Below are positions 6,317 to 54,936 of a stretch of DNA of 64,000 nt, one piece after another. How positions within the stretch are numbered: position 1 is the stretch's first letter; every line of letters begins with the position of its first letter. Under the pieces are notes generated by a model. It worked only from the letters and a program-made list of their open reading frames with translations, was not told the origin of the DNA and did no database searches. Position numbers and translations under genes: made by a program. Origin of the DNA: Atrina japonica (lineage: Eukaryota > Mollusca > Bivalvia > Pterioida > Pinnidae); contig BROG01000546.1 in NCBI GenBank assembly GCA_030159075.1, positions 186,001 to 250,000 of the forward strand, in the 5' to 3' direction.

Positions 6317-8177
6317 TCCATTACAACAGTCAGTGTGTGTTCTATATTTGACGAAACCCATTACAACATAGGTCAGTGTGTGTTCTATATTTGACGAAAC
6401 CCATTACAACATAGGTCAGTGTGTGTTCTATATTTGAAACCCATTTCTGTATATTTGACGAAACACATCACAACAGAGGTCAGTGTGTGTTCTATATTTG
6501 ACGAAACCCATCACAACAGAGGTCAGTGTGTGTTCTGTATTTGACGAAACCCATCACAACAGAGGTCAGTGTGTGTTCTGTATTTGACGAAACCGAAACC
6601 CTGTATTTCACAACACAACAGAGGTCAGAGTGTGTTCTGTATTTGACGAAACCCATCACAACAGAGGTCAGTGTGTGTTCTGTATTTGACGAAACCCATC
6701 ACAACAGAGGTCAGAGTGTGTTCTGTATTTGACGAAACCCATTACAACAGAGGTCAGTGTGTGTTCTGTATTTGACGAAACCCATTACAACAGAGAGTGT
6801 GTGTTCTGTATTTGACGAAACCCATTACAACAGAGGTCAGTGTGTGTTCTGTATTTGACGAAACCCATTACAACAGAAGTCAGTGTGTGTTCTGTATTTG
6901 ACGAAACCCATTACAACAGAAGTCAGTGTGTGTTCTGTATTTGACGAAACCCATTACAACAGAGGTCAGTGTGTGTTCTGTATTTGACGAAACCCATTAC
7001 AACAGAGGTCAGAGTGTGTTCTGTATTTGACGAAACCCATTACAACAGAGGTCAGTGTGTGTTCTATATTTGACGAAACCCATTACCACAGAGGTCAGTG
7101 TGTGTTCTGTATTTGACGAAACCCATCACAACAGAGGTCAGTGTGTGTTCTGTATTTGACGAAACCCATCACAACAGAGGTCAGTGTGTGTTCTGTATTT
7201 GACGAAACCCATCACAACAGAGGTCAGTGTGTGTTCTATATTTGACGAAACCCATCACAACAGAGGTCAGTGTGTGTTCTGTATTTGACGAAACCCATCA
7301 CAACAGAGGTCAGTGTGTGTTCTGTATTTGACGAAACCCATCACAACAGAGGTCAGTGTGTGTTCTGTATTTGACGAAACGAAACAACCATGTGTGTTCT
7401 GTATTTTACGAAACCCATCAGAGGGTCAGTGTGTGTTCTATATTTGACGAAACCCATCACAACAGAGGTCAGTGTGTGTTCTATATTTGACGAAACCCAT
7501 CACAACAGAGGTCAGTGTGTGTTCTATATTTGACGAAACCCATCACAACAGAGGTCAGTGTGTGTTCTGTATTTGACGAAACCCATTACAACAGAGGTCA
7601 GTGTGTGTTCTATATTTGACGAAACCCATTACCACAGAGGTCAGTGTGTGTTCTATATTTGACGAAACCCATTACAACAGAGGTCAGTGTGTGTTCTATA
7701 TTTGACGACCCAAACAACAGAGGTCAGTGTGTGTTCTATATTTGACGAAACCCATCAGGTCAGGTCAGTGTGTGTTCTATATTTGACGAAACCCATTACC
7801 ACAGAGGTCAGTGTGTGTTCTATATTTGACGAAACCCATTACCACAGAGGTCAGTGTGTGTTCTATATTTGACGAAACCCATTACCACAGAGGTCAGTGT
7901 GTGTTCTATATTTGACGAAACCCATTACCATTAGGTCAGTGTGTGTTCTATATTTGACGAAACCCATTACCACAGAGGTCAGTGTGTGTTCTGTATTTGA
8001 CGAAACCCATTACAACAGAGGTCAGTGTGTGTTCTGTATTTGACGAAACCCATTACAACAGAGGTCAGTGTGTGTTCTGTATTTGACGAAACCCATTACA
8101 ACAGAGGTCAGTGTGTGTTCTGTATTTGACGAAACCCATTACAACAGAGGTCAGTGTGTGTTCTATATTTGACGAAA
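6317..8177. repeat. 43-bp minisatellite, about 43 units
   Basis: Near-perfect tandem array. Each unit holds AGGTCAGTGTGTG, then TTCTRTATTTGACGAAACCC, then ATYACAACAG. Variants are grouped in blocks: CATCACAAC at about 6467-6720 and 7110-7560, CATTACAAC at 6730-7080 and 7970-8160, and CATTACCAC with CTATA at 7780-7980. A few units are shortened or interrupted (about 6430, 6590, 7380, 7705, 7755). The period is not a multiple of three, so the repeat-like peptides it can encode are by-products. Every unit has an AGGTCA, the nuclear-receptor half-site consensus; that may be chance. Confidence 0.97.
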
Positions 8178-12140: not shown

Positions 12141-12344
12141 CATCATAACATAGCGCGAGTAAATTGTCATATTGGAACCATTGACCCCTATAGACCACAA
12201 TAGACTTGTCTAAACAATAGAAAAGCATACCATCTAGATACTTAGAGTTGGAAGGGTAAAAAGTAGGAATTCCCCTTTCTTAATAGAAATATGTTAGAAA
12301 TGAAGCAAATACCTCCTTTCGTGTATATGTTGTCATGTTGAGAC

Positions 12345-12675
12345 CGTTTGAGTCCCCGAGGGCATACATAAATCTAGTACCTGGTATCTCGGTGCCAGCT
12401 GATACTCTTATACTAAAGTAATTTTTGGCAATGATAACACATTTAAATTTCTAAATTCTTCTAAAGTTAGGATAGCCTTCTTTTTACAGTGGTTACTCTT
12501 AGATGGATTTTGATTATACGTTTAGATTTATTATTTGGCCTTGTCTGATATCACTTTCACTTCAGAAACTCTATTTTAAAATTTGAGCTCAACTGATGAA
12601 GTCTAATTGACAGAAACGATCGTCTTCAGCATAATAACTTTGGTATTGCATTTTATGTTTATGATATATTTATAT
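12345..12675 (+). mobile_element. Retrozyme-like unit with hammerhead motif, single copy
   Basis: One copy of an approximately 305-bp unit that occurs inverted and in tandem at 13632-14250. Shared blocks include GAGACCGTTTGAGTCCCCGAG at its left, a middle part ending in TTATTTGGCCTTGTCTGATA, and the right end ATAATAACTTTGGTATT. A hammerhead-like fold lies at 12587-12630. No coding capacity is visible. Its size, hammerhead and tandem relatives match the small non-autonomous retrozymes described from animals, including molluscs. Confidence 0.6.
12587..12630 (+). ncRNA. Hammerhead ribozyme-like motif (type I, minimal stem III)
   Basis: Stem I is formed by GCTCAA (12587-12592) and TTCAGC (12625-12630), with one C/C mismatch. 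The core box CTGATGA is at 12593-12599. A short stem II, GTC/GAC with loop TAATT, is at 12601-12611. The second box GAAA starts at 12613. A two-base-pair stem III, AC/GT with loop GATC, follows, then the predicted cleavage residue C at 12624. An A/A pair replaces the usual G10.1-C11.1 pair at the base of stem II, so activity is uncertain. Other copies have TTGAGC on the 3' side, which would complete stem I. Confidence 0.6.
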
Positions 12676-12681
12676 ATATTA

Positions 12682-12682
<1 letters not shown>

Positions 12683-12741
<59 letters not shown>
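12683..12741. repeat. (TA)n microsatellite
   Basis: Pure AT dinucleotides, starting just beyond the single retrozyme-like unit. Confidence 0.97.
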
Positions 12742-12744
<3 letters not shown>

Positions 12745-13631
12745 TGTATCGGAATAAGGATATAAAATTCGTACAATCCATATATTTTGTCTACATGGGT
12801 TACAATAAAAACATTTTCGGATTTTCACTGAACTTTCTTATTATATCATTAATGTACATACAATCTGCCAAATTAAAATTATCAGATCTGAATTTATAAT
12901 ACCAATAATTTTATCCCAAAGTCGAAGCCCCAAGTAGCAAGCCTTGCGCTAATTTGCCAAAACAAATCTTAAAACCGTTGTATCAACCCAGATTTCAATG
13001 CCTTAAGAATATTTAAAATATATTTTGAAAATGTAAGAATTCTTATAATTGCTACAATTGCAAAGATGAATTTTGACACTTTCACTAACGTTTTGTCTAC
13101 GCACTGGTCTTTTGTAATCGTAAAACAAAATTTTTACATTCCGATTTATTCACATTGGATAATTGTAGAAAACATAATAGTAACTGGATGAATTGTACTA
13201 TATACACATACCAAATGAACGGAAAATCGCTGAAAATGCAAAATATCTAAAGACAAAAAGTACAGTCTCTTCTTTGATCTATTAACCTACCGTTTTTTTT
13301 AAATAATGTCTTAAAATGTCAAGACCTTTGGATGTTGTCGTAAATATCAAGACGGATCTCAATATAACAGCAGTAATCCGGTTTGACCTTTCTTACTCAA
13401 TCGTCTTCAATGCCTTCTTAAACCACAGCAGATAGACAACATTAGTATAAATATAATCAAGAATATAAATTCAATTTGCTTTGTTGGTGAAGCTGAAACC
13501 AATACACTGCAAAATAAAAACATCTTGAATAAAAATCTACTGAGAACATCAGTTTCAAATTGATCTTCGCATTGATAGATATTAATTATTGTTCTGTGAT
13601 TATTAGTATCCATATATTGTAATGGTGTCAA
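12742..13631. other. Spacer between retrozyme-like units
   Basis: No recognised content; separates the plus-strand unit from the minus-strand dimer. Confidence 0.5.
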
Positions 13632-13660
13632 ACTTATAAACATAATACCAAAGTTATAAT

Positions 13661-13706
13661 GATGAAAACGATCGTTTCTGTCAATTATATTTCACCAGTG
13701 AACTCC
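13661..13706 (-). ncRNA. Degenerate hammerhead-like motif, unit 1 of dimer
   Basis: Read on the minus strand: a GGAGTTCA arm, core CTGGTGA (one change from CTGATGA), TAATTGACAGAAAC, then GATCGTT. The GAAA box and the AC-GATC-GT mini-hairpin are kept; the core substitution and the changed 3' arm suggest it is inactive. Confidence 0.5.
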
Positions 13707-13965
13707 AGTTTACAATAGATGCTTATTTTCTAAAAAGAAAGAGGTATCATACAAGGCCAAATATGAATTACTATCTTAGTTTTGGAAACTTTAGAACTTA
13801 AGGAGTGTTGTCAGTGCGAAACATTATTTAGTGTAAGAATATCAGCTGCTACCGAATTATCAGGCACTAAGTTTATGTATACTCCCCAGGGATTCAAACA
13901 GTCCACTAGCAGTGGCAACGACCCAGTAGTTATAAGTATTGTAAACATAATACCAAAGTTATTAT

Positions 13966-14010
13966 GCTCAAGGCGATCGTTTCTGTCAATTAAACTTCAT
14001 CTGTGAAGCT
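13966..14010 (-). ncRNA. Degenerate hammerhead-like motif, unit 2 of dimer
   Basis: Read on the minus strand: the 5' arm GAAGCTTCA, core CAGATGA, GTTTAATTGACAGAAAC, GATC loop, GCC, and 3' arm TTGAGC. Core U4 is changed and U16.1 has become C, so this copy is probably inactive. The GATC loop lies exactly 305 bp from that of the neighbouring unit. Confidence 0.5.
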
Positions 14011-14341
14011 CCAGTTTATAAAAGATGCATATAATCTAAAAAGAACTTGGTATCATACAAGGACAAATAACAAATCTAAATATTAACAAAATCTGTCTAA
14101 GATTAACACAGATTACTATCTTACTTTTGGAATTTAAGTGCTGTTATCAGTGCAGAATAGTACTTGAGTATAACATTATCAGCTGGTACCGAAATCCCAG
14201 GTAGTAAGTTTATGTTTACCCTCGGGGAATCAAACGGTCCAACAGCAGTGGCAAAAATCAGACAAATCTACAGTACCAAGTCGTAATTCCATCTAAATCA
14301 AGATGTCACGCGAGAAACCTCTCAAAACTAAGAGAAAGGGA

Positions 14342-18810: not shown

Positions 18811-20266
18811 AATATAAAAATTTCAGATACCAAAGTATAAATCAATAGAATGTCCAGGACATAGATACAAATCCGTTAAAAATGGACAAACACGGACCTC
18901 TGGAAACCAAGAGGTGGGATCAGGTGCCATGGAGGAGTAAGCATCCCCTGTTGACCGGTCATACCCGCCGTGAGTCCACAGTCAAGTCCAATGAAACACG
19001 TGAGGAGTGTATCCTCGTCACAATTGGTACAGACGTCTTAACAACCGCCAACGAAAAGGCAACTCAACATTTCAATTAGTGAAACAGAGTAGTCGCAAAC
19101 AAGCCTATTATACCGACCGTAACATTTGCGGAACGTTGACATTAAACGCGGTTTCGATATCCCTGTGTCAATAATTTGTCAGTGAGTAGTTTACCTCTGT
19201 ATATGAAATCTTCATATGTTGTGCACGCCCTGGCATATCGGATCATTTGTGAAATATAAAACTCCATATGCGGGTGACTGAGGGATATTACTACTTAAAT
19301 GTGGAAAATTTACGATGGGAAAGCTGAAATCGTCGCGTTTATCGTATAGCTTAGTTGCTAATTTTCCGTCTGTGTTTATATTAAGTAAAATGTCTAAGTA
19401 TGAAGCGTGTATGCTTGATTATGTTGTATCTTTAATTTCTAGTTCGCTGGGATATATCGCATTGACATATGTATGAAAATTGTCATTATTAATTGACAAA
19501 ACGTCGTCGATATATCTAAATGTCAAATTAAAGGACAGCGCTAACTTTTTCTTCTTTTGATTCAGCAGTTTCTGAATGAAGTTTGCTTCGTATGAATAAA
19601 GGAACAGGTCGGCCAATAAAGGAGCACAATTGGTTCCCATAGGAATGCCGACAGTTCGTTGAAAGACCACGTCTCCGAACATTACAAATATATTGTCTAT
19701 TAGAAATTCCAGCATGTTTATTATATCAACTTCAGTATATTTATGTATAGAATCAGAGTGGTGTTTGACGAAATAAGTACCCTGATAGCCAATCACTAGA
19801 TATTTAAATTTTCGGGTACCACCTTTAGTGAAAAAGCAGTTGTCTACAATGCTGAAAAGTCTTTCTTTTAATTTTTTATGTGGAATAGTAGTGTAAAGGG
19901 TAGAGAAGTCATAAGTTTTGATATTGTGAATTCGAGAAAAGTTGTGTGCCTTCAAATTTTCTAAAATCTGTTTAGAATTTTTAAGTATCCACATCTGATT
20001 TACACCGCTTTTGGAATAAGCAACTGTACAGTATTGTTGAAGTTTCTCCTTAATTGCTTGTCAATATCTTGGTAAGGAGTAAAGATAAAGGTTTGGTAGA
20101 GCATTTGCTGGATCCTGCTATGTTTCTTTGTTTATATGGGGTTTTATGAAGTTTAGGTATCCAGTATAAATGTGGTAGCTGGAAATCGGTATCCGTTGTA
20201 GGTTTATCAAATGAGCGTAATACGGACACGTGATTTTGAAGGATCTCGTACTTTGAAAGTGAGCTG
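18811..20266 (-). mobile_element. PLE-B copy, largest and best preserved
   Basis: Read on the minus strand from 20266: LYWIPKLHKTPYKQR, then an open stretch of 191 codons (19994-19419) with DFSTLYTTIPH, NMLEFLIDNIFVMF, GIPMGTNCAPLLADLFLYSY (RT palm) and FRYIDDVLSINN (catalytic aspartates intact). A stop at 19419 replaces a sense codon; the same frame continues ASYLDILLNINTDGK and LYDKRDDFSFPIVNFP, then a one-base insertion near 19255 shifts it into [14 protein letters not shown]. The tail with GRQGMLTPPWHLIPPLGFQR ends at 18811. The Met at 19994 is internal to the RT domain, not a start codon. The upstream DKG region is missing. This is a dead copy. Confidence 0.85.
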
Positions 20267-24372: not shown

Positions 24373-24597
24373 CATAAGCACCATCATGTCTGTACCAGAC
24401 TTTGTCATCTTTTGACTGTACAAATGATAAGTTGGTTATGTCGCTGAGGATAACCGGAGGGCACCGAAAAAATCTCTGCGAGTCCCAGTAGACATTCAGT
24501 ATGCAATTTGGTCCTTTTCATTTCATTAAATGTATGTACCGAGTATCCTCGGGGACAAAATGTCCACCTGCAGAGATACATACTCGGTGGTAAAAAT

Positions 24598-24665
24598 ATA
24601 AAAAAACCTCAGATACTAAGATATAAATCTTTAGTATGCCCAGGATATTGTAAAAATATGGCAGG
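24598..24665 (-). mobile_element. Very short PLE-B 3' terminus
   Basis: AAAACCTCAGATACTAAGAT followed by CTTTAGTATGCCCAGGATAT corresponds to only the last 60-70 bp of the PLE-B tail. Confidence 0.6.
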
Positions 24666-28965: not shown

Positions 28966-29719
28966 TCTTTACACGTTCTTGTTGAAATGAATTGAGGTAC
29001 TTTTAGAAAATGCAAAACGGTGACAATACAATCGCCGAACGATATTCTATTTCTTGTACATAATTAATGATTAATAACTTTAGGTGTGAAGGGATACCCA
29101 GAGAAACAGGTGTATTTCAGTGAGATCTGTCTTAAGTTAACAGCAACAGTGTAATAGAGGTAGATTAGAACAAAATATAGAAATGAAATTACCTCGATGT
29201 CAAACATAGTTCATTACAGATATAACACATTGGTAATAACTGAACTTCATGAACTGCACACGTCACCTTGTAGATAATGTTCACGGGTAAAATGTTCATA
29301 TCTATATATCTAAAAATTATATATCTAGAATAATAGTTGAACATGCAGGGTAAACAACCGATACTAACGGTGTATACATATGCCTTATACAGTTGAAATT
29401 TACTTTCTTATGTTTTGAAAATTAGTATGAAGTATTCAACAGATAACACATTGTTTGAAAATGAGACCACCCCCGCAATTAGATAATTGACACAATGAGA
29501 AAAACATATAAAATTAAAACAAAAATGTTTATCAAATTTGATTTTCTCATTACAATACTACACAACACAATTCTTAATTTACACGATTTGTTAAAGCTAT
29601 GATGATAATATAAAAATCACGGATACGGAAATATGTACTAATTCATGCACATAAATTAGTTACATGGAAAACACGGCCCGACAATATCCGACATTTCAAC
29701 TATACATTTGTATTTATTA

Positions 29720-29830
29720 CTTTCCCTTTAGAAAATCTGTTTTAAATTGGAGCCCAGCTAATGGAGTCTTGTTGACAGAAACGATCGTTTTGAGCATTAT
29801 AATGTTGGTCTTGTGTTTAATATGTTTAAA
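29720..29830 (+). mobile_element. Partial retrozyme-like unit with hammerhead remnant
   Basis: Matches the 3' part of the 12.3-14.2 kb units: TTTAGAAAAT, a GGAGCCCAG arm, core CTAATGG, TTGACAGAAACGATCGTT, TTGAGCATTATAA. The hammerhead remnant spans 29751-29795. Stem I pairs at five of six positions, counting one G-U wobble. No second unit is visible beside it. Confidence 0.45.
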
Positions 29831-30639
29831 TAGCACAAGTAACGATATATACCATGTTCTGGCTGGACAATTTGGTATCTGTATATTCATATACTTAAAA
29901 TAGACACTTATACATGCAACGCAGACAAATGCTATGGTTTCTATAATCCAATGCCATTTTCCTGAAATAGAATATCTTCACAGAAACTGTATTCATTCAC
30001 TTTTGGGTTTTTTTGTTAATGAGTATGGAATATTTAATTAACAAGGTATTCAATGATATCTGCCTCCTCATTGTAAAATGCACACCGACATCAATAAAAG
30101 GAGAAATGCAGAATAAATAAATCACGTAGTCAATATGATCAAGTGATATTCAACATGGTTTTATGCGCATGCTCATTATATCTCTCAAACAAAACCTCAT
30201 GATATTATTATTATGCAAGATTTATTCAAATATATTTCTTCAACTTAGGATCTGGCTTGTCAAACATTTGCCAGGTCGGATGTAACCGCGATATTCTTAA
30301 CACTAGGGTAGATTAATAGAATCTTATATGAATGTGTAGAGTGAATAAGGAAATGTACACCTGAGTGGCTAGCTTCCGCTTGTCCGATCCAAAGGTTTCC
30401 CAATACTTACTACGATGGTTGAAATTTCTTTTTCCACTCAACACACCCATGTTTGATTATTTTTCTCCTATGATTCAAATAAAATCTGATGCAACTTTAA
30501 CCCTTTTCCCACTGAACATCTGAGCGGTATGCTCTTTCTATTGTCTTATACTAGTCTATTATCGTCTGTAGGGGTGAAAGGGTAATGCAATGTATTCTCA
30601 TTACATAAAAGTCCTTTGTTATAAAATTATATATGCATT

Positions 30640-30725
30640 TTTTATAAACTGAAGTTCAAATGATGAAATATAACTGACAGAATCGATCGTCTTGAGCATT
30701 ATAACTTTGGTATTATGCTAATAAT
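30640..30725 (+). mobile_element. Partial retrozyme-like unit with hammerhead remnant
   Basis: The motif spans 30654-30697: arm GTTCAA, core ATGATGA, a stem II region ending CTGACAGAATC, GATCGTC, and arm TTGAGC. Stem I pairs fully, with one G-U wobble. The changed C3 and the GAAT in place of GAAA mark it as decayed. It ends with ATTATAACTTTGGTATTATG, the family terminus. Confidence 0.5.
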
Positions 30726-31489
30726 ATTGTGACGTCATAGCACGTGTAGATTGCCTACACTGTAGAGTGTGGACAGCAATTCTGGCTTGACATAGTGGTA
30801 AATACGCTTGTTCAAGTTAGATGGGAGAATTCCTTATCCATTCAAGGACGTGAGATTCTATTAATTTATCTAATTATTGGAATTATCGTTGGCTATAACT
30901 ACAAATCGTTTAGAGACTCGAGTGTAAGGCCGATATAAATCTGTCTAGTCGTCTGCTGCGCACATGTTTTGCTTTAGGATTTCACTTAGTTTTAGAGTTG
31001 TTTGTTAAGTTAGGTCATGGAGGAAAATACTTGGATTCGGTATTCTCTCCGGGTTTCTCTATGTTAGATGTTAAAGGAAACCTGAATTATAGATCGCATA
31101 ATGAACATAATTACCTGATATCACGTTTTCTTCACTGGTACATTTCCTTAACAATCCATTGGGTCCACAATATATTCACAGCACGCTTTAGTCTATTACT
31201 TTGACATTTTATCAGCCTTTTTTGAAGAAGCCAGATTTATTCATTTTACTGATTCTTAAGTTGAATAATACGTACTGAACCTTGCCATTATAGACAATGC
31301 CCGTATAGACTGTTAAATCTTTCGTAGTGAATAACTCTTTTATATAGCGGTTTCTTTTTCTTAAAATCAAATTCACAAAATAAAAGAAGATTTAAACATA
31401 AGCAACGTCCTACTGTTTTTTTTCTGCAGCTTACAGTGTATCAATTACGCATGCTTTTTTTAGATAGTCAATCCTCTACATAACCTGGT

Positions 31490-42076: not shown

Positions 42077-43200
42077 TAAAAAATCTCAGATACCAAAGTA
42101 TAAATCTATAGGATGTCCAGGATACAGATACAAATCTGGTAAAAATGGACAAACACGGACCTCTGGAAACCAAGAGGTGGGATCGGGTGCCATCGAAGAG
42201 TAGGCATGCCCTATCGACAGGTTAAACCGCCGTGAGTCCATAGTCAAGTCCAAATGAAAAACGTGAGGAAAGAATCCTCGTCACAATTGGTACAGACGTC
42301 TCAACAACCGCCAACGAAAAGGCAACTCAAGTGAAACAGAGTAATCGCAAACCGACCGTGAAATATGTGGAACGCTGACATCAAACGGGGTTATTGATAT
42401 TCCTCTGTCAATAATTTGTCCGGGAGTAGTTTGCCTCTGTATATGAAATATTCATATGTTGAACACGCCCTGGCATATTTGATCATTTTTAAGTATAAAA
42501 TCCATATGCGGGTACGTGTGGGATATTATATTTTAATGTGGAAATTGGGAAAGCCTAAATCGTTGCATTTATCATATAGCCTCTGTCAATAATTTGTCCA
42601 TGAGTAGTTTGCCTCTGTATATGAAATATTCATATGTTGAAAATGCCCTGGCATATTTGATCATTTTTTAAATAAGAAATTCCATATGCGGGTGCTTGTG
42701 GGATATTATACATTAATGTGGAAAATGGGAAAGCCTAAATCCTTGCATTTATCATATAGCTTAGTTGCCAATTTCCCGTCCGTGTTTATAGTAAGTAAAA
42801 TGTGTAAGTATGAAGCGTGTGTACTTGATTCTGTTGTATCTTTAATTTTTAGTTCGCTGGGATATATCGCATTGACATATGTATGAAAATTGTCATTATT
42901 AATTACTTTTAATAAAAACGTTGGTATTATGTTTATAATATTTCAATCGATATATCTAAATATCATATTAAATGACACCCAATAAAGGGGCACAATTGGT
43001 TGCGAATGCCAACAGTTTGTTGAAAGAACACGTTTCCGAACAATACAAATATATTGTGTATTAGAAATTCCAGCATGGTTTTTATTATATACTTCAGTGT
43101 ATTTATGTGTAGAATCAGAGTGGTGTTGGACAAAATTAGTATCATGATAACCAAACAATAGATTTTTAAAATTTCGGGCACTACCTTTAGTGAAAAAAAT
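42077..43200 (-). mobile_element. PLE-B copy with internal duplication and insertions
   Basis: The full PLE-B tail begins at 42077 and is followed by the C-terminal RT part. A 178-bp direct duplication starts at 42403 and 42581 (CTCTGTCAATAATTTGTCC). A foreign piece of about 37 bp (42907-42943), ending GGTATTATGTTTATAATATT, interrupts the region just before the YIDD box. The RT palm is mostly deleted; a degenerate GIPMG region follows at about 43000. The 5' side stops near 43200, before a SINE body at 43226. Confidence 0.8.
42907..42943 (+). repeat. Retrozyme-terminus fragment inside a PLE-B copy
   Basis: ACGTTGGTATTATGTTTATA matches the terminal sequence of the hammerhead units (ACTTTGGTATTATG). 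The other PLE-B copies read straight through this point without it. Confidence 0.4.
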
Positions 43201-48291: not shown

Positions 48292-48845
48292 AAAATCTCA
48301 GATACCAAAGTATAAATCAATAGAATGTCCATGACATATATACAAATCCAGTAAAATGGACAAACACGGACCTCTGGAAACCAAGAGGTGGGATCAGGTG
48401 CCATGGAGGATTAAGCATTCCTTGTCGACCGGTCACACCCGCCGTGAGTCGACAGTCAAGTCCAATGAAATACGTGAGGAATGAATCCTCGTCACAAATG
48501 GTACAGACGTCTCAACAACCGCCGACGAAAACGCAACTCAACATTTCACTTCGTGAAACAAACACGGACCTCTGGAAACCAAGAGGTGGGATCATTTGCC
48601 ATGGAGGATTAAGCATCCCCTGTCGACCAGTCACACTCGCCGTGAGTCCACAGTCAAGTCCAATGAAATACGTGGGGAGTGAATCCCCGTCACAATTGGT
48701 ACAGACGTATCAACAACTGCCAACGAAAACGCAACTCAACATTTCACTTCGTGAAACAGAGTAATCGCAAACAAGACTTTTATACCGACCATAAAATTTG
48801 CGGAACGTTGACATTAAACGCGGTTTTCGATATCCCTGTGTCATA
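48292..48845 (-). mobile_element. PLE-B tail with 198-bp internal tandem duplication
   Basis: The tail begins at the common 3' end (48292). The segment starting CAAACACGGACCTCTGG is present at 48361 and 48559, a 198-bp period; the junction lies at GTGAAACAAACACGG, where the unit end and unit start share a few bases. The second unit continues into the RT end (CGGAACGTTGACATTAAACG, 48801) and stops near 48845. Confidence 0.85.
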
Positions 48846-51368: not shown

Positions 51369-53832
51369 CAATTATTTAGAATTACACAACTCTGTTATTG
51401 ATTTCCGTTTTATTGAAGAAATCTCGTAAAAGTTTTAGCTGTGTGAGCTAATTGGACATGCATTTTATTGGGTGAAGTCGTTAGTTCCGGTGCGTCATTG
51501 CTTATTGACTACCTTTGTATGTTGTATTACAATCAGATGTGATCAAAGGGTTATCTATATCGTCAGAGCTGCGATTCTAATTTCTGTACAGATGAGTTTG
51601 AATCAGATCCGTCCAAGTAGACAGCTGTGTAGCGCTGTCAATATCATGGCGATACATCACTGATACACAAATATATTTAGCACGCACAGTAATTACAACT
51701 ATACCGATTCAATGTGCATTTTCAAGAACTATTCGATGATTTTGCAGCAGATCTTTAAAAACAAAAGTGTTTTGGTATAATGTGGATGCATTGTGATTAA
51801 GTACAGTTCTTAACACATTACACGAATTCCTTTGAAAATGGATTTTTTTGCTTTGAAGAAGCGTGGATTTACATGTTTACATGCTTTTATATTTTCGTTC
51901 ATGTGTTATTATGGTGGATGTTTCGCTGATACAAAGTTAAACTTAGTGAACTCCGTTTCATTCAATTAAATCATTGTTGAATATACCCGTGGGAAACGCT
52001 GAAAAGGAACGAAGTAGGCTTTGATAAATAGAACTTTAATTCAATTAAAGTAAGTATATGCTGTTATTATTACAAAAGAATATGATAATAATTACCAAAA
52101 TATTATATTCATTTTTATACATTTAAGTACCAATACAATGTTAGGCATTAAACACATATCTAATATATTTTAATGGCATTTTTCATTTTATATACATGAT
52201 ATGATGCAATAATGCATAAGCTAAACTGATTTAATTGGTAAACGTTTTTCATTCTGAGAATTTAAGAAATAATCGTTCCGTTAAGAGACAACAAGATTTT
52301 GAAAAATTCCAAAATTGTCATAATCAACATTTCAGTTTCGCTATTTTCATATTTTGTGCATCTAGGCTTGTTTTCGTTTTGATTTCAACGCTATGTGATC
52401 ACACTTTATATGAATTTGTAGATAAAACAGATAATTTTATAGATCTACCATATACAACACAAACTACACTTCGGGATACTTAGAGTAGCGTACAAATGTT
52501 ATCCTTAAAGATTACACATATCCTGCGGTATAGTAAATCGCACTTGCTGAACATTTGTTTTTCAGATGTAATATTTTATTTTAGACATGGATTTTGGTAT
52601 CATATCGTCTTGTGCATTATAAATTCGGTATTATGTTTATAATATTTCTTAACTGATAGATACGTCTATCTGAAATTCTGTCTCATGCATTGTCTTTTAC
52701 ATACCATAGCGATAGCGATATATATGTACAAACTACCAATGTTTAGAGAAAAGTCATATAACTGAAATTTAAGTATATTTACATATAATCGATGGTGGGT
52801 ATTTACTCATCCTTGCAGTTGGCAATAATTATCATGTGTGAGCACGCATTGATACACCTAAACATGCATATCAATCATAAATACGAAACTATTTTGCTTA
52901 TTGATTGAGGAGATTGTACAATTCAGGTATGGTCCGGAGAAGAGGTTCCAATGTGTTGCAGATACGGGCAAGTCAACTTAGAATTCCAGAAATATATATT
53001 CATAGTCATTCTGTGTTTTTACAATATAATGTAATCAGCGACATAAAATTTATTAAGTAGCATATACATGATTATCTCAAGATGATATAGAAAGATATGT
53101 TATCGGAAATACTGAAAAATCTTATGAAATCTGAAGAGGTAAAAAATGATTGTACTTAACTTGTACTTACCACACTTTTAAGTGGATATACTTGGTGCTT
53201 TATAAGACGTTTTCATCAAATTTGATTCGTAATGTTCAACGCCACACGTTCTTCAGGATCCTTTCATTTACATGAATTGAAAGTTAATTGCATATGATTA
53301 ATGGCTGTATGTATTACATTGGCGCTAATATCGGGCCCATTTTGATGTCACAGATGATTACAAATGTTGTTCTAACAGAATGGATGCAACTATAAGCTAA
53401 TATCAACAACTGTCAAACTCCATTTTAATGTTGGAAAAAGTAATGTTCGTAAATAGTCCTGTCTGGAACTGAAATTAACAGGAGGAAACAGACAATAATA
53501 CAATTTTATAAATAATTATACAGCAGTGCTATATTTAATTTGCAGTAGACTTGTGATATTTTAGAAATGAAATTAAGTACATACTTAGCATCGTTATCAA
53601 TTTTGTATATGCTTCATTACTGAATTTTGTACCTATTTTGATTTTGCACTTTGTGCAATCTATAATCAAATCAAGAATACATCAGCCGATGGATAATAAC
53701 TACAGAACCGAAAATGATGAGATAAATATAGTGTTGTAAATTTAACGGACTTTCTCCAAAATAATAATAAGAATAAATAATAAAAAAAAAAACAAAGTGT
53801 CCAAGCAGGTGCTTGATCTCATTCAGGAAGAC
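51369..53832. other. Upstream region of the GPCR gene
   Basis: Would hold the promoter and any 5' exon, but no clear TATA, initiator or splice arrangement can be assigned. An 82-codon frame at 52235 is unrecognised. A retrozyme fragment lies at 52598. Confidence 0.5.
52598..52655 (+). repeat. Retrozyme 3' terminus fragment
   Basis: The string ATCGTCTTGTGCATTATAA followed by CGGTATTATGTTTATAATAT resembles the segment downstream of the predicted hammerhead cleavage site in the other units. The upstream ribozyme core is not recognisable here. Confidence 0.4.
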
Positions 53833-54936
53833 ATGTTTGGAAATAGTTCTTATTCCGATGATTTCATCGACGATACAGGATATGATTTTAATAGTGAAAA
53901 ATTAAATCGAATCAGTCGTATGTATATGGGGGTACATGGATATCTTAGCGTCATAGTGTGCGTTTTTGGCATTCCAACAAATTTTATCAACATAACCGTT
54001 TTAACAAGGAAACATATGGTCACACCTATTAATTGTATTTTGACGTGGATGGCTGTGTCCGACTTGTTAACTATGACTTCATATGTTCCATTTGCTATAC
54101 ATTTTTATTGCCATTACAACCCAGAAACATTATCACCTGAGAAAAATAGTTATGGGTGGATGAAGTTTTTACTTTTTCATATAAATTTTTCATCAACGAC
54201 TCATACTGTTTCCATTTGGCTTGGAGTTGCTTTAGCGATTTTCCGATACAAACACATAAAATCACCTGCAAAGGGAAATATAACTCGAATGCGAAGATTA
54301 ATACGAGCTCGTGTTGTAGTATTTGTAATTTATTGTGGATCGTGTGTTCTACTGATTCCAAACTATGTTTCAAATGAAATGGTTCCCTATTCAGAAAACT
54401 CGTCGATATTTATCATGCCGGATCCAAAACTAGGAACACCTTACGCTAAACCCGTAGTGCTGGTAAATTTATTCTTATACAGTGTTGTTGCAAAGTTATT
54501 ACCCTGTATACTGATGCTTATATATGGTGGACTTCTTTTACAAACGTTAAACAGCAAGATGAGGATTAAACGACGAAAGCTTTCGAAAAGCGTGGGAGTG
54601 GTACAGAGACCACTCGATACATCTCGGACTACAATTATGTTGCTTACAGTTCTTGTTTTGTTTTTGTTTACCGAGTTGCCCCAGGCTATACTTATATTAC
54701 TTAGTGTGGTTCTACGAGGATTTTTCGATTATATATACATTCCACTTGGGGACGCCATGGATATCATTGCCCTGGTAAATAATGCTATCAATTTTATTTT
54801 ATATTGTTCAATGAGTAGAGAATTCCGGAGAACACTTGTAAAAATGATTTGTAAATTTGGCAGGAAAAGATCACATCGTTTATTGACTGAGTTTACCAGA
54901 GATGGCACGCAAACCGTTTGGATCGGTATGAAATAG
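53833..54936 (+). CDS. Rhodopsin-type GPCR, myosuppressin/sex-peptide receptor-like (DMSR-like)
   Basis: Single-exon seven-transmembrane receptor, 367 aa from the first ATG. The open frame extends upstream through a GTG (53797) to a stop at 53743, so ATG 53833 is the first eukaryotic start. Approximate segments: TM1 34-57 with GIPTN (N50 as 1.50), TM2 65-90 with MAVSD (D77 as 2.50), TM3 111-138 ending HTVSIWLGVALAIFRY, TM4 160-177, TM5 206-237, TM6 264-293 with FTELPQAILILLS, TM7 303-327 with NNAINFILYCSMSREFRR. DRY is replaced by FRY (137-139) and NPxxY by NFILY. N-glycosylation sequons lie at N4 and N189, in predicted extracellular parts. The usual cysteine at the top of TM3 is not evident. 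The HTxSIWL..LAxxRY and TM6/TM7 signatures fit invertebrate FMRFamide/myosuppressin (DMSR) and sex-peptide receptors, so a neuropeptide ligand at the plasma membrane is inferred. No close AATAAA signal was found downstream, and upstream non-coding exons cannot be excluded. The GPCR call is firm; the subfamily is likely; the ligand is unknown. Confidence 0.9.
   Translation: MFGNSSYSDDFIDDTGYDFNSEKLNRISRMYMGVHGYLSVIVCVFGIPTNFINITVLTRKHMVTPINCILTWMAVSDLLTMTSYVPFAIHFYCHYNPETLSPEKNSYGWMKFLLFHINFSSTTHTVSIWLGVALAIFRYKHIKSPAKGNITRMRRLIRARVVVFVIYCGSCVLLIPNYVSNEMVPYSENSSIFIMPDPKLGTPYAKPVVLVNLFLYSVVAKLLPCILMLIYGGLLLQTLNSKMRIKRRKLSKSVGVVQRPLDTSRTTIMLLTVLVLFLFTELPQAILILLSVVLRGFFDYIYIPLGDAMDIIALVNNAINFILYCSMSREFRRTLVKMICKFGRKRSHRLLTEFTRDGTQTVWIGMK

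Follow-up and report, generated by a model that had tools for sequence, protein, structure and literature searches.

What moves small hammerhead-bearing repeats through an animal genome, and what is the ribozyme for? The question is raised by a stretch of 64,000 nucleotides from the bivalve Atrina japonica (contig BROG01000546.1, positions 186,001 to 250,000, forward strand; this whole stretch is called the window below), in which three related units with hammerhead-like cores lie between positions 12,320 and 14,261. An earlier note, made from the letters alone, had taken them for retrozymes, possibly moved by the Penelope-like elements (PLEs) that are abundant here. The analysis indicates that the units probably belong to a non-autonomous, non-coding retrozyme family which is mobilised in trans by an abundant PLE of permuted domain order in the same genome. 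What was a guess about the mover is now backed by a tail and a covarying hairpin common to both elements.

Two covariance models were used besides blastn: R1, built from 16 retrozyme hairpins without PLE sequences, and R2, a model of the ribozyme built from 10 other loci outside the window. The following features make up the three units:

12320..12671, + strand: retrozyme copy A (unit U1), a 5′-truncated monomer (blastn to other copies), with a worn hairpin at 12320-12384 (R1, 33.8 bits), then body, hammerhead and tail; an AT microsatellite comes next
12584..12632, + strand: hammerhead of U1 (R2, 73.0 bits, E 4e-17; sequence)
13631..14261, − strand: retrozyme copy B, tandem dimer U3-U2 (direct repeats, blastn, R1, R2)
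13659..13706, − strand: hammerhead of U2, core CTGGTGA, stems I and II damaged (R2, 33.5 bits)
13860..13928, − strand: copy B hairpin lying 3′ of its internal tail (R1, 67.2 bits)
13964..14012, − strand: hammerhead of U3, core CAGATGA and stem I damaged (R2, 55.4 bits)
14197..14261, − strand: 5′-edge hairpin of copy B with a broken outer stem (R1, 51.6 bits)

The three units proved to be related as described, with U1 on the + strand and thus inverted relative to the tandem pair U2/U3 on the − strand. They are non-coding, as no open frame of at least 130 amino acids overlaps any of them. U1 proper spans 12342-12671, with a weak start at 12320, while copy B contains two hammerheads and two hairpins and its tail ends near 13631. 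An exact 305-bp tandem had been proposed for copy B; this holds for the 69-nt blocks 13634-13702 and 13939-14007 (86%), whereas elsewhere insertions and deletions give a spacing of 306-345 bp, and the 305-bp spacing is best read as a deleted form of the family unit of about 352 bp. Each copy shows a CTGATGA-like core, GAAA, a GATC mini-stem and complementary arms, and each is matched by R2. In U1 the predicted cleavage site is 12624/12625, positions 10.1/11.1 are A.A, and one pair of stem I is broken (TTCAGC instead of TTGAGC). The damage to core and stems noticed before is real: a hammerhead descriptor requiring at least three unbroken stem I pairs matches 0 times in the window vs 0.95 times per shuffled window. 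It is local to the window copies, and complete type I hammerheads are present at other loci.

The link to a mover lies at the 3′ end. Both the retrozyme and the PLE carry the tail motif ACTTTGGTAT, a 21-nt AT-rich spacer and a three-tier hairpin. The sequence GATTTA[TC]ACTTTGGTATCTGA was found in 8/8 PLE loci (one of them the window's), immediately ahead of where their shared sequence stops; ACTTTGGTATCTGA sits about 15 AT-rich bases before that end, and the retrozyme ends likewise. For the tails alone, the similarity between retrozyme and PLE beat 4,994 of 5,000 mononucleotide shuffles. A comparison of 45-mers against the window (41 of 20,000) was unusable, since the window itself contains PLE and retrozyme tails. 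At C25 a PLE tail runs directly into the next PLE copy, and this junction still resembles the retrozyme over some 50 nt beyond the end point, with a score that was reached by 0/5000 shuffles and by 0/5000 80-mers from the + strand of the window.

The retrozyme and PLE sequences fold into the same nested hairpin (z −2.93 for the PLE). R1 finds the PLE starts of L088 and L104 with 37.1 bits (E 1.2e-8, roughly calibrated), and 20/20 pairs of the resulting alignment are standard; as read from it, four pairs (three outer, one middle) differ on both sides between retrozyme and PLE and one pair on one side. No match of R1 was obtained in four check loci of the Rfam model RF00163, an imperfect check in which L031 holds a worn family fragment. 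A first MAFFT alignment (A1), with the PLE outer stem one column off, was replaced by the covariance model. In alignment A4 (33 rows, of which 27 are distinct, two of these from the PLE), two-sided change was seen at 6 pairs vs 2.8 in shuffles, 10/500 of which reach 6, and in 11 cells vs 3.5, with 0/500 reaching 11; when slid, A4 gave at most 4 such pairs and 5 such cells. The distance from tail to hairpin is 21 nt in 30/33 pattern-fitting retrozyme junctions and in 2/2 pattern-fitting PLE junctions. The alignment thus argues that the common hairpin is kept by compensatory changes. The common element appears to mark where copying into DNA starts, and it would point to the enzyme that moves the retrozyme.

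The partner PLE is represented in the window by, among others, two features:

18812..20265, − strand: decayed PLE copy (96% alignment to L086; genome matches; tail), with an open reading frame for a reverse transcriptase (RT) fragment at 19419-20060 and the 3′ tail motif at 18827-18857
24373..24620, − strand: PLE head-to-tail junction, a tail followed by a PLE 5′ start from 24594 downwards (R1)

Of 32 window matches to a lax tail pattern, 12 were read as clear tails belonging to a single PLE family, and several RT remnants sit between PLE tails. The RT fragment 19419-20060 matches RVT_1 with E 6e-4, below the Pfam cut-off, and gave 33,230 first-look candidates in the genome, of which 150 were scored, all at 92-100% identity. 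Relatives of the PLE number 693; among the 120 listed, the sole animal named is the bivalve Pinctada imbricata (59% and 54%). Five long relatives were scanned, three of them chosen because GIY-YIG was already annotated: GIY-YIG precedes the RT in 5/5, above the Pfam cut-off in 4, and RVT_1 is below its cut-off in all 5. The local PLE copy has an N-terminal GIY-YIG with E 7.5e-4, also below the cut-off. Judged by these domain matches, the partner PLE has a permuted domain order, with N-terminal GIY-YIG and C-terminal RT, which we take to be that of the Naiad elements, a clade of the RT tree marked by a CCHH motif. Naiad PLEs, which Craig et al. are said to have described in 2021, reportedly combine this order with pseudo-LTR (long terminal repeat) tandems and reach tens of thousands of copies in invertebrates; they are not known to carry hammerheads or to have a hammerhead-bearing partner.

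The earlier note had connected retrozymes and PLEs through the hammerheads which PLEs also carry. This connection failed, as none was found in the permuted-domain PLE concerned: over 10 PLE loci the sole R2 match lies in a separate retrozyme copy of L087, and the Rfam hammerhead gave none in 3 PLE loci at E≤5, with the limit that minimal PLE-type hammerheads could escape both. Because the partner PLE is without a detected hammerhead, hammerheads in PLEs are not the link. The PLE junction of the window, in a worn copy, contains the common hairpin at 24532-24589 (R1, 27.2 bits, E 1.6e-5). Searched in the genome, the PLE junction had 667 candidates, and 40/40 scored matches, a count which includes the query's own place, run at 95-100% over 329-341 of 341 nt; the head-to-tail junction is best taken as a standing structure. 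Of 20 short stretches at expected PLE 5′ starts, 5 match the PLE there and 1 (L104) holds the whole junction; most PLE copies are therefore 5′-truncated. A 198-bp tandem dimer at 48360-48758, the unit of which resembles, by eye, the reverse complement of the PLE 3′ end region, adjoins a PLE tail at 48302-48332 (−).

The insertion ends of the retrozyme are in line with a fixed starting point. The unit of about 352 bp is numbered from the predicted cleavage site, with one real unit (L009:1692-2043) as reference ruler, and 37 loci with copies were taken for the family analysis; L002-L006 and L008, which overlap other loci, were excluded from the counts, and L057/L069 repeat L056/L068. In 40/41 elements from 38 loci the 3′ end falls at unit position 32-45, so that it is fixed about 40 nt past the cleavage site, while the 5′ truncation is variable. 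A second sample, searched with the tail only (30 loci in genome order, 28 distinct elements; the search pattern forces the presence of the tail), has lengths of 31-696 bp, 23/28 being shorter than 300 bp and 5/28 longer than one unit. Here 27/28 end at unit positions 36-47, and the rearranged L065 runs on. Direct repeats of at least 9 bp flank 5/66 elements vs 0.43 expected by re-pairing the flanks (3 of 69 elements were dropped for odd or cut ends), and most copies have none. The mapped ends show that copies are truncated on the 5′ side and start internally at a constant 3′ point. A peak of 5′ ends at the cleavage site (22/41 within about 35 nt; 16/41 lengths of 355-415 bp) was considered as a footprint of cutting and was dropped because it vanishes in the tail-only sample (6/28, about chance); the first loci had been ranked by a query favouring full units.

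The retrozyme family itself is abundant in the 832 Mb searched. A core pattern of 28 fixed bases, with 10.1 and 11.1 left free, has 1,605 exact matches and 0 in the reversed control, and the retrozyme tail 24-mer has 11,692 matches at ≤1 mismatch. The window region gave 133 matches in its own genome, although no more than 39 candidates out of 9,335 were scored; many of the matches lie in arrays with a period of about 350 bp. With these 133 matches, and with 1,605 exact cores vs 0 for the reversed core pattern, the units are not a product of chance. Tandem arrays, the unit of about 352 bp, the type I hammerhead and dispersed insertions support the identification as retrozymes; metazoan non-LTR retrozymes are dispersed non-coding repeats of about 170-400 bp in small tandem arrays, characterised also by target site duplications and by linear and circular RNA of unit length. 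Arrays contain up to 5 full units among the loci examined, and median unit identity is 97.0 within arrays (28 pairs) vs 90.9 between arrays (675 pairs). In the L009 array, all five units have 14 array-specific states in common, with 5 private sites and 1 shared, which is consistent with the copying of one circle. Relatives of the family were not found in viral and prokaryote contig collections by two hairpin-pattern scans and one ribozyme-core scan.

A family consensus with pairing stems was obtained from 56 ribozymes at 22 loci (the window being one locus): GCTCAA-CTGATGA-A-GTC-TAATT-GAC-A-GAAA-CGATCG-TC^TTGAGC. Stem I is GCTCAA/TTGAGC (6 bp), stem II GTC-TAATT-GAC (3 bp) and stem III AC-GATC-GT (2 bp), and cleavage is predicted after GTC. 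The core positions are each kept in 53-56/56 ribozymes, and the type I features CUGANGA, GAAA, H17 and an open stem I are all present. The Watson-Crick pair 10.1-11.1, usually G-C, is largely missing from the family: A10.1 occurs in 53/56 and A11.1 in 56/56 ribozymes, and the first 100 listed cores have 90 A.A, 6 C.A, 2 U-A, 1 A.C, 1 A.G and 0 G-C. The A/A mispair reported before in the window units is therefore present, though not as decay, since 90/100 listed cores carry it; in these alignments it is a family trait. The C at 10.1 in six and the U, forming U-A, in two of these cores may mark subfamilies.

The Rfam hammerhead scan gave no match in the window (gathering cut-off), in 12300-14300 (E≤10) or in five further loci whose copies are well preserved (E≤10), and this miss is attributed, putatively, to the absent G10.1-C11.1 pair. 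A search of the genome with RF00163, in which only 73 of 92,384 candidates were scored, reached at best 27.5 bits vs a cut-off of 34. Its match L029 was discarded, as no GAAA core is seen in the stretch examined and the same search fires in 11/14 control genomes. The worn family fragment in L031 lies at 1166-1198 (R2, 27.5 bits).

The following course of events is proposed. The hammerheads would cut transcripts of loci with at least two units, and a host ligase would circularise the monomer of about 352 nt. Having bound the hairpin, the PLE protein would begin reverse transcription at an internal point within the spacer, on an AT-rich target that has been nicked. Since the hairpin would lie 3′ of this start, an insertion shorter than the unit would be without it. 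Because the hairpin would be lost on insertion in this way, a circle or multimer would be needed as template; only these would place the hairpin behind the tail, which may be the reason for the ribozyme. Copying beyond one turn would give tandem arrays, and early fall-off the many short 5′-truncated copies.

Three known systems resemble parts of this scheme, as far as the accessible text of the papers goes. The retrozymes of Mytilus galloprovincialis likewise form small tandem arrays of 350-390 bp repeats with a type I hammerhead, in thousands of copies and beside PLEs in the same genome; the present family differs by A.A in place of the 10.1-11.1 pair. PLEs were named there as likely movers because of their co-existence with retrozymes, the tandem copies and the type I hammerheads present in both, and no common 3′ end or recognition element is given in the accessible text (Cervera and de la Pena, 2020; PMC7229834). 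In mussel retrozymes, hammerhead cutting plus ligation leads to circles (PMC7229834), and the same steps would supply the circle here. The axolotl retrozyme HHR_Amex2 also has a 353-bp repeat, a two-pair helix III with tetraloop and a mismatch at the base of helix II, U.U as opposed to A.A here; it cleaves much better as a dimer, the monomer reaching 22% in an hour (PMC7229834). The Poseidon PLE of the anole is a tandem PLE with an internal RT start, a genomic tail and an AT-rich target, and RNA 3′ of the internal start is required (Frangieh et al., 2024; PMC11167929). In both elements described here the hairpin is what lies at that place. In contrast to the present case, no non-autonomous partner is described for the anole PLE in the accessible text (PMC11167929).

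A broader claim is that animal retrozymes are parasites of permuted PLEs through tail, 21-nt spacer and hairpin, in the manner of short interspersed elements (SINEs); that they need the ribozyme because insertion removes the recognition hairpin, leaving circles and multimers as the only usable templates; and that the A10.1.A11.1 hammerhead works. We put this forward tentatively, with somewhat more doubt than belief. SINEs share 3′ tails with long interspersed elements (LINEs), the non-autonomous element borrowing the RT-recognition end of the autonomous one. The present case differs from the SINE/LINE pairs in that the hairpin proposed for recognition is located 3′ of the RT start, and insertions below unit length do not contain it.

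Several observations weigh against mobilisation of a cutting, circularising retrozyme by the PLE. The earlier note would have given up the idea on a missing hammerhead match for the consensus, or on stems that do not pair together with no circular or cleaved RNA; Rfam gave no match in the loci scanned, and the consensus stems do pair. The ribozyme does not stand out in conservation from the remainder of the unit (rank 101 of 352 windows), shuffled sequences fold as well as its 96 nt (z −0.01), and an inactive fold of 44 nt, in which GAUGA pairs with UCGUC, is predicted to be 4.8 kcal/mol better than the catalytic one. The predicted fold of the circle is no more stable than that of shuffles, and for this family self-cleavage and RNA circles are inferred. 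The retrozyme hairpin folds are by themselves only mildly stable (z −1.30 and −0.82). Alignment A4 was fitted to the model, which favours structure, with only two distinct PLE rows, and further pair types are no more frequent than in shuffles (23 vs 22.1; 192/500 reach this). All evidence comes from one genome. Arrays L010-L012 do not fit simply as copies of one circle: four units of L010 (C67:78000-82300) alternate at five sites, 1 and 3 vs 2 and 4, as if a dimer were the repeated unit or the template, L011 contains two near-identical units, and in L012 it changes along the unit which two copies match. In the literature, as far as accessible, 10.1-11.1 is the most conserved hammerhead pair after A15.1-U16.1, and U.U, not A.A, is reported as the best tolerated mispair (PMC3088659). 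In the anole PLE, mutating the ribozyme left in vitro insertion unaffected, and RNA that had not been processed was taken as the main substrate (PMC11167929).

Room is left by the A.A pair, the competing fold and these anole mutants for a version in which the PLE moves the retrozyme while the hammerhead is slow or dead, and linear multimeric read-through transcripts serve as template without a circle. We regard it as unlikely. A.A in 90/100 listed cores, a ribozyme without special conservation, the alternating or paired units of L010-L012 and the continued insertion of anole ribozyme mutants (PMC11167929) would all suit a linear template. Against it stand the preservation of the core and of all three stems in the consensus, and the five L009 units, which have their 14 array-specific states in common and otherwise differ little. 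Mussel retrozymes of like size (350-390 bp) cleave and circularise (PMC7229834), and the anole ribozyme, inactive alone, cut when PLE protein was added (PMC11167929, accessible text); a weak ribozyme may therefore be protein-assisted and not dead. Descent of the retrozyme from PLE ends (tail plus 5′ start) that captured a ribozyme, with another enzyme moving it now, is improbable: the homology over the whole tail-start junction speaks for such an origin, but compensatory changes, constant spacing and 3′ ends at the same place suggest continued use. Such descent and mobilisation in trans by the PLE would be compatible. A chance look-alike of the hammerhead in an unrelated repeat would agree with the negative Rfam scan and with about one descriptor match per shuffled window, but is very improbable: the core, GAAA and stems II and III coincide at 1,605 sites, the consensus also has stem I and the cleavage triplet, and both the size of the unit and its arrangement in arrays are like those of the published mussel retrozymes (PMC7229834). 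It is hardly credible that the repeat is a satellite DNA which spread by unequal crossing-over and merely inherited a hammerhead-like motif. Tandem arrays and near-identical adjacent units in some of them would fit, but the mapped ends already disfavour it (dispersed copies, 23/28 sampled below 300 bp, one fixed 3′ end with scattered 5′ ends, some target duplications). Newt satellites were reportedly first described as satellite DNA with a hammerhead-like motif.

Which enzyme moves animal retrozymes, and what their ribozyme is for, are standing questions, for which papers of 2020 name PLEs as likely candidates; co-existence and hammerheads are the grounds also in PMC7761336 (accessible text). 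No report of a common 3′ end or recognition hairpin of retrozymes and PLEs, or of a conserved A.A hammerhead, was found in a literature search without most subscription papers, including, for the latter, the accessible text of PMC3088659. A covarying element at equal distance from the 3′ end in both makes the question of the mover testable with one protein and two RNAs. If mobilisation by the PLE is true, hammerhead circles would be tied to a PLE type seemingly without hammerheads, and hammerheads would gain a naturally conserved A.A variant where a base pair has been considered necessary. The case would also show that an Rfam scan can overlook a family that has more than a thousand exact cores.

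Four further fragments of the retrozyme were identified in the window:

29715..29830, + strand: 5′-truncated retrozyme fragment with worn hammerhead at 29749-29797 and tail (blastn; R2, 53.3 bits)
30631..30732, + strand: 5′-truncated retrozyme fragment with worn hammerhead at 30651-30699 and tail (blastn; R2, 45.5 bits)
42917..42948, + strand: tail-only retrozyme fragment (blastn; sequence)
52604..52651, + strand: tail-only retrozyme fragment (blastn; sequence)

Additionally, a 43-bp satellite array is located at 6318-8177 of the window, with about 37 copies in its main block, and an open frame of 396 amino acids (stop to stop) at 53746-54936 (+) matches a seven-transmembrane receptor (7TM_GPCR_Srw, E 2e-31).
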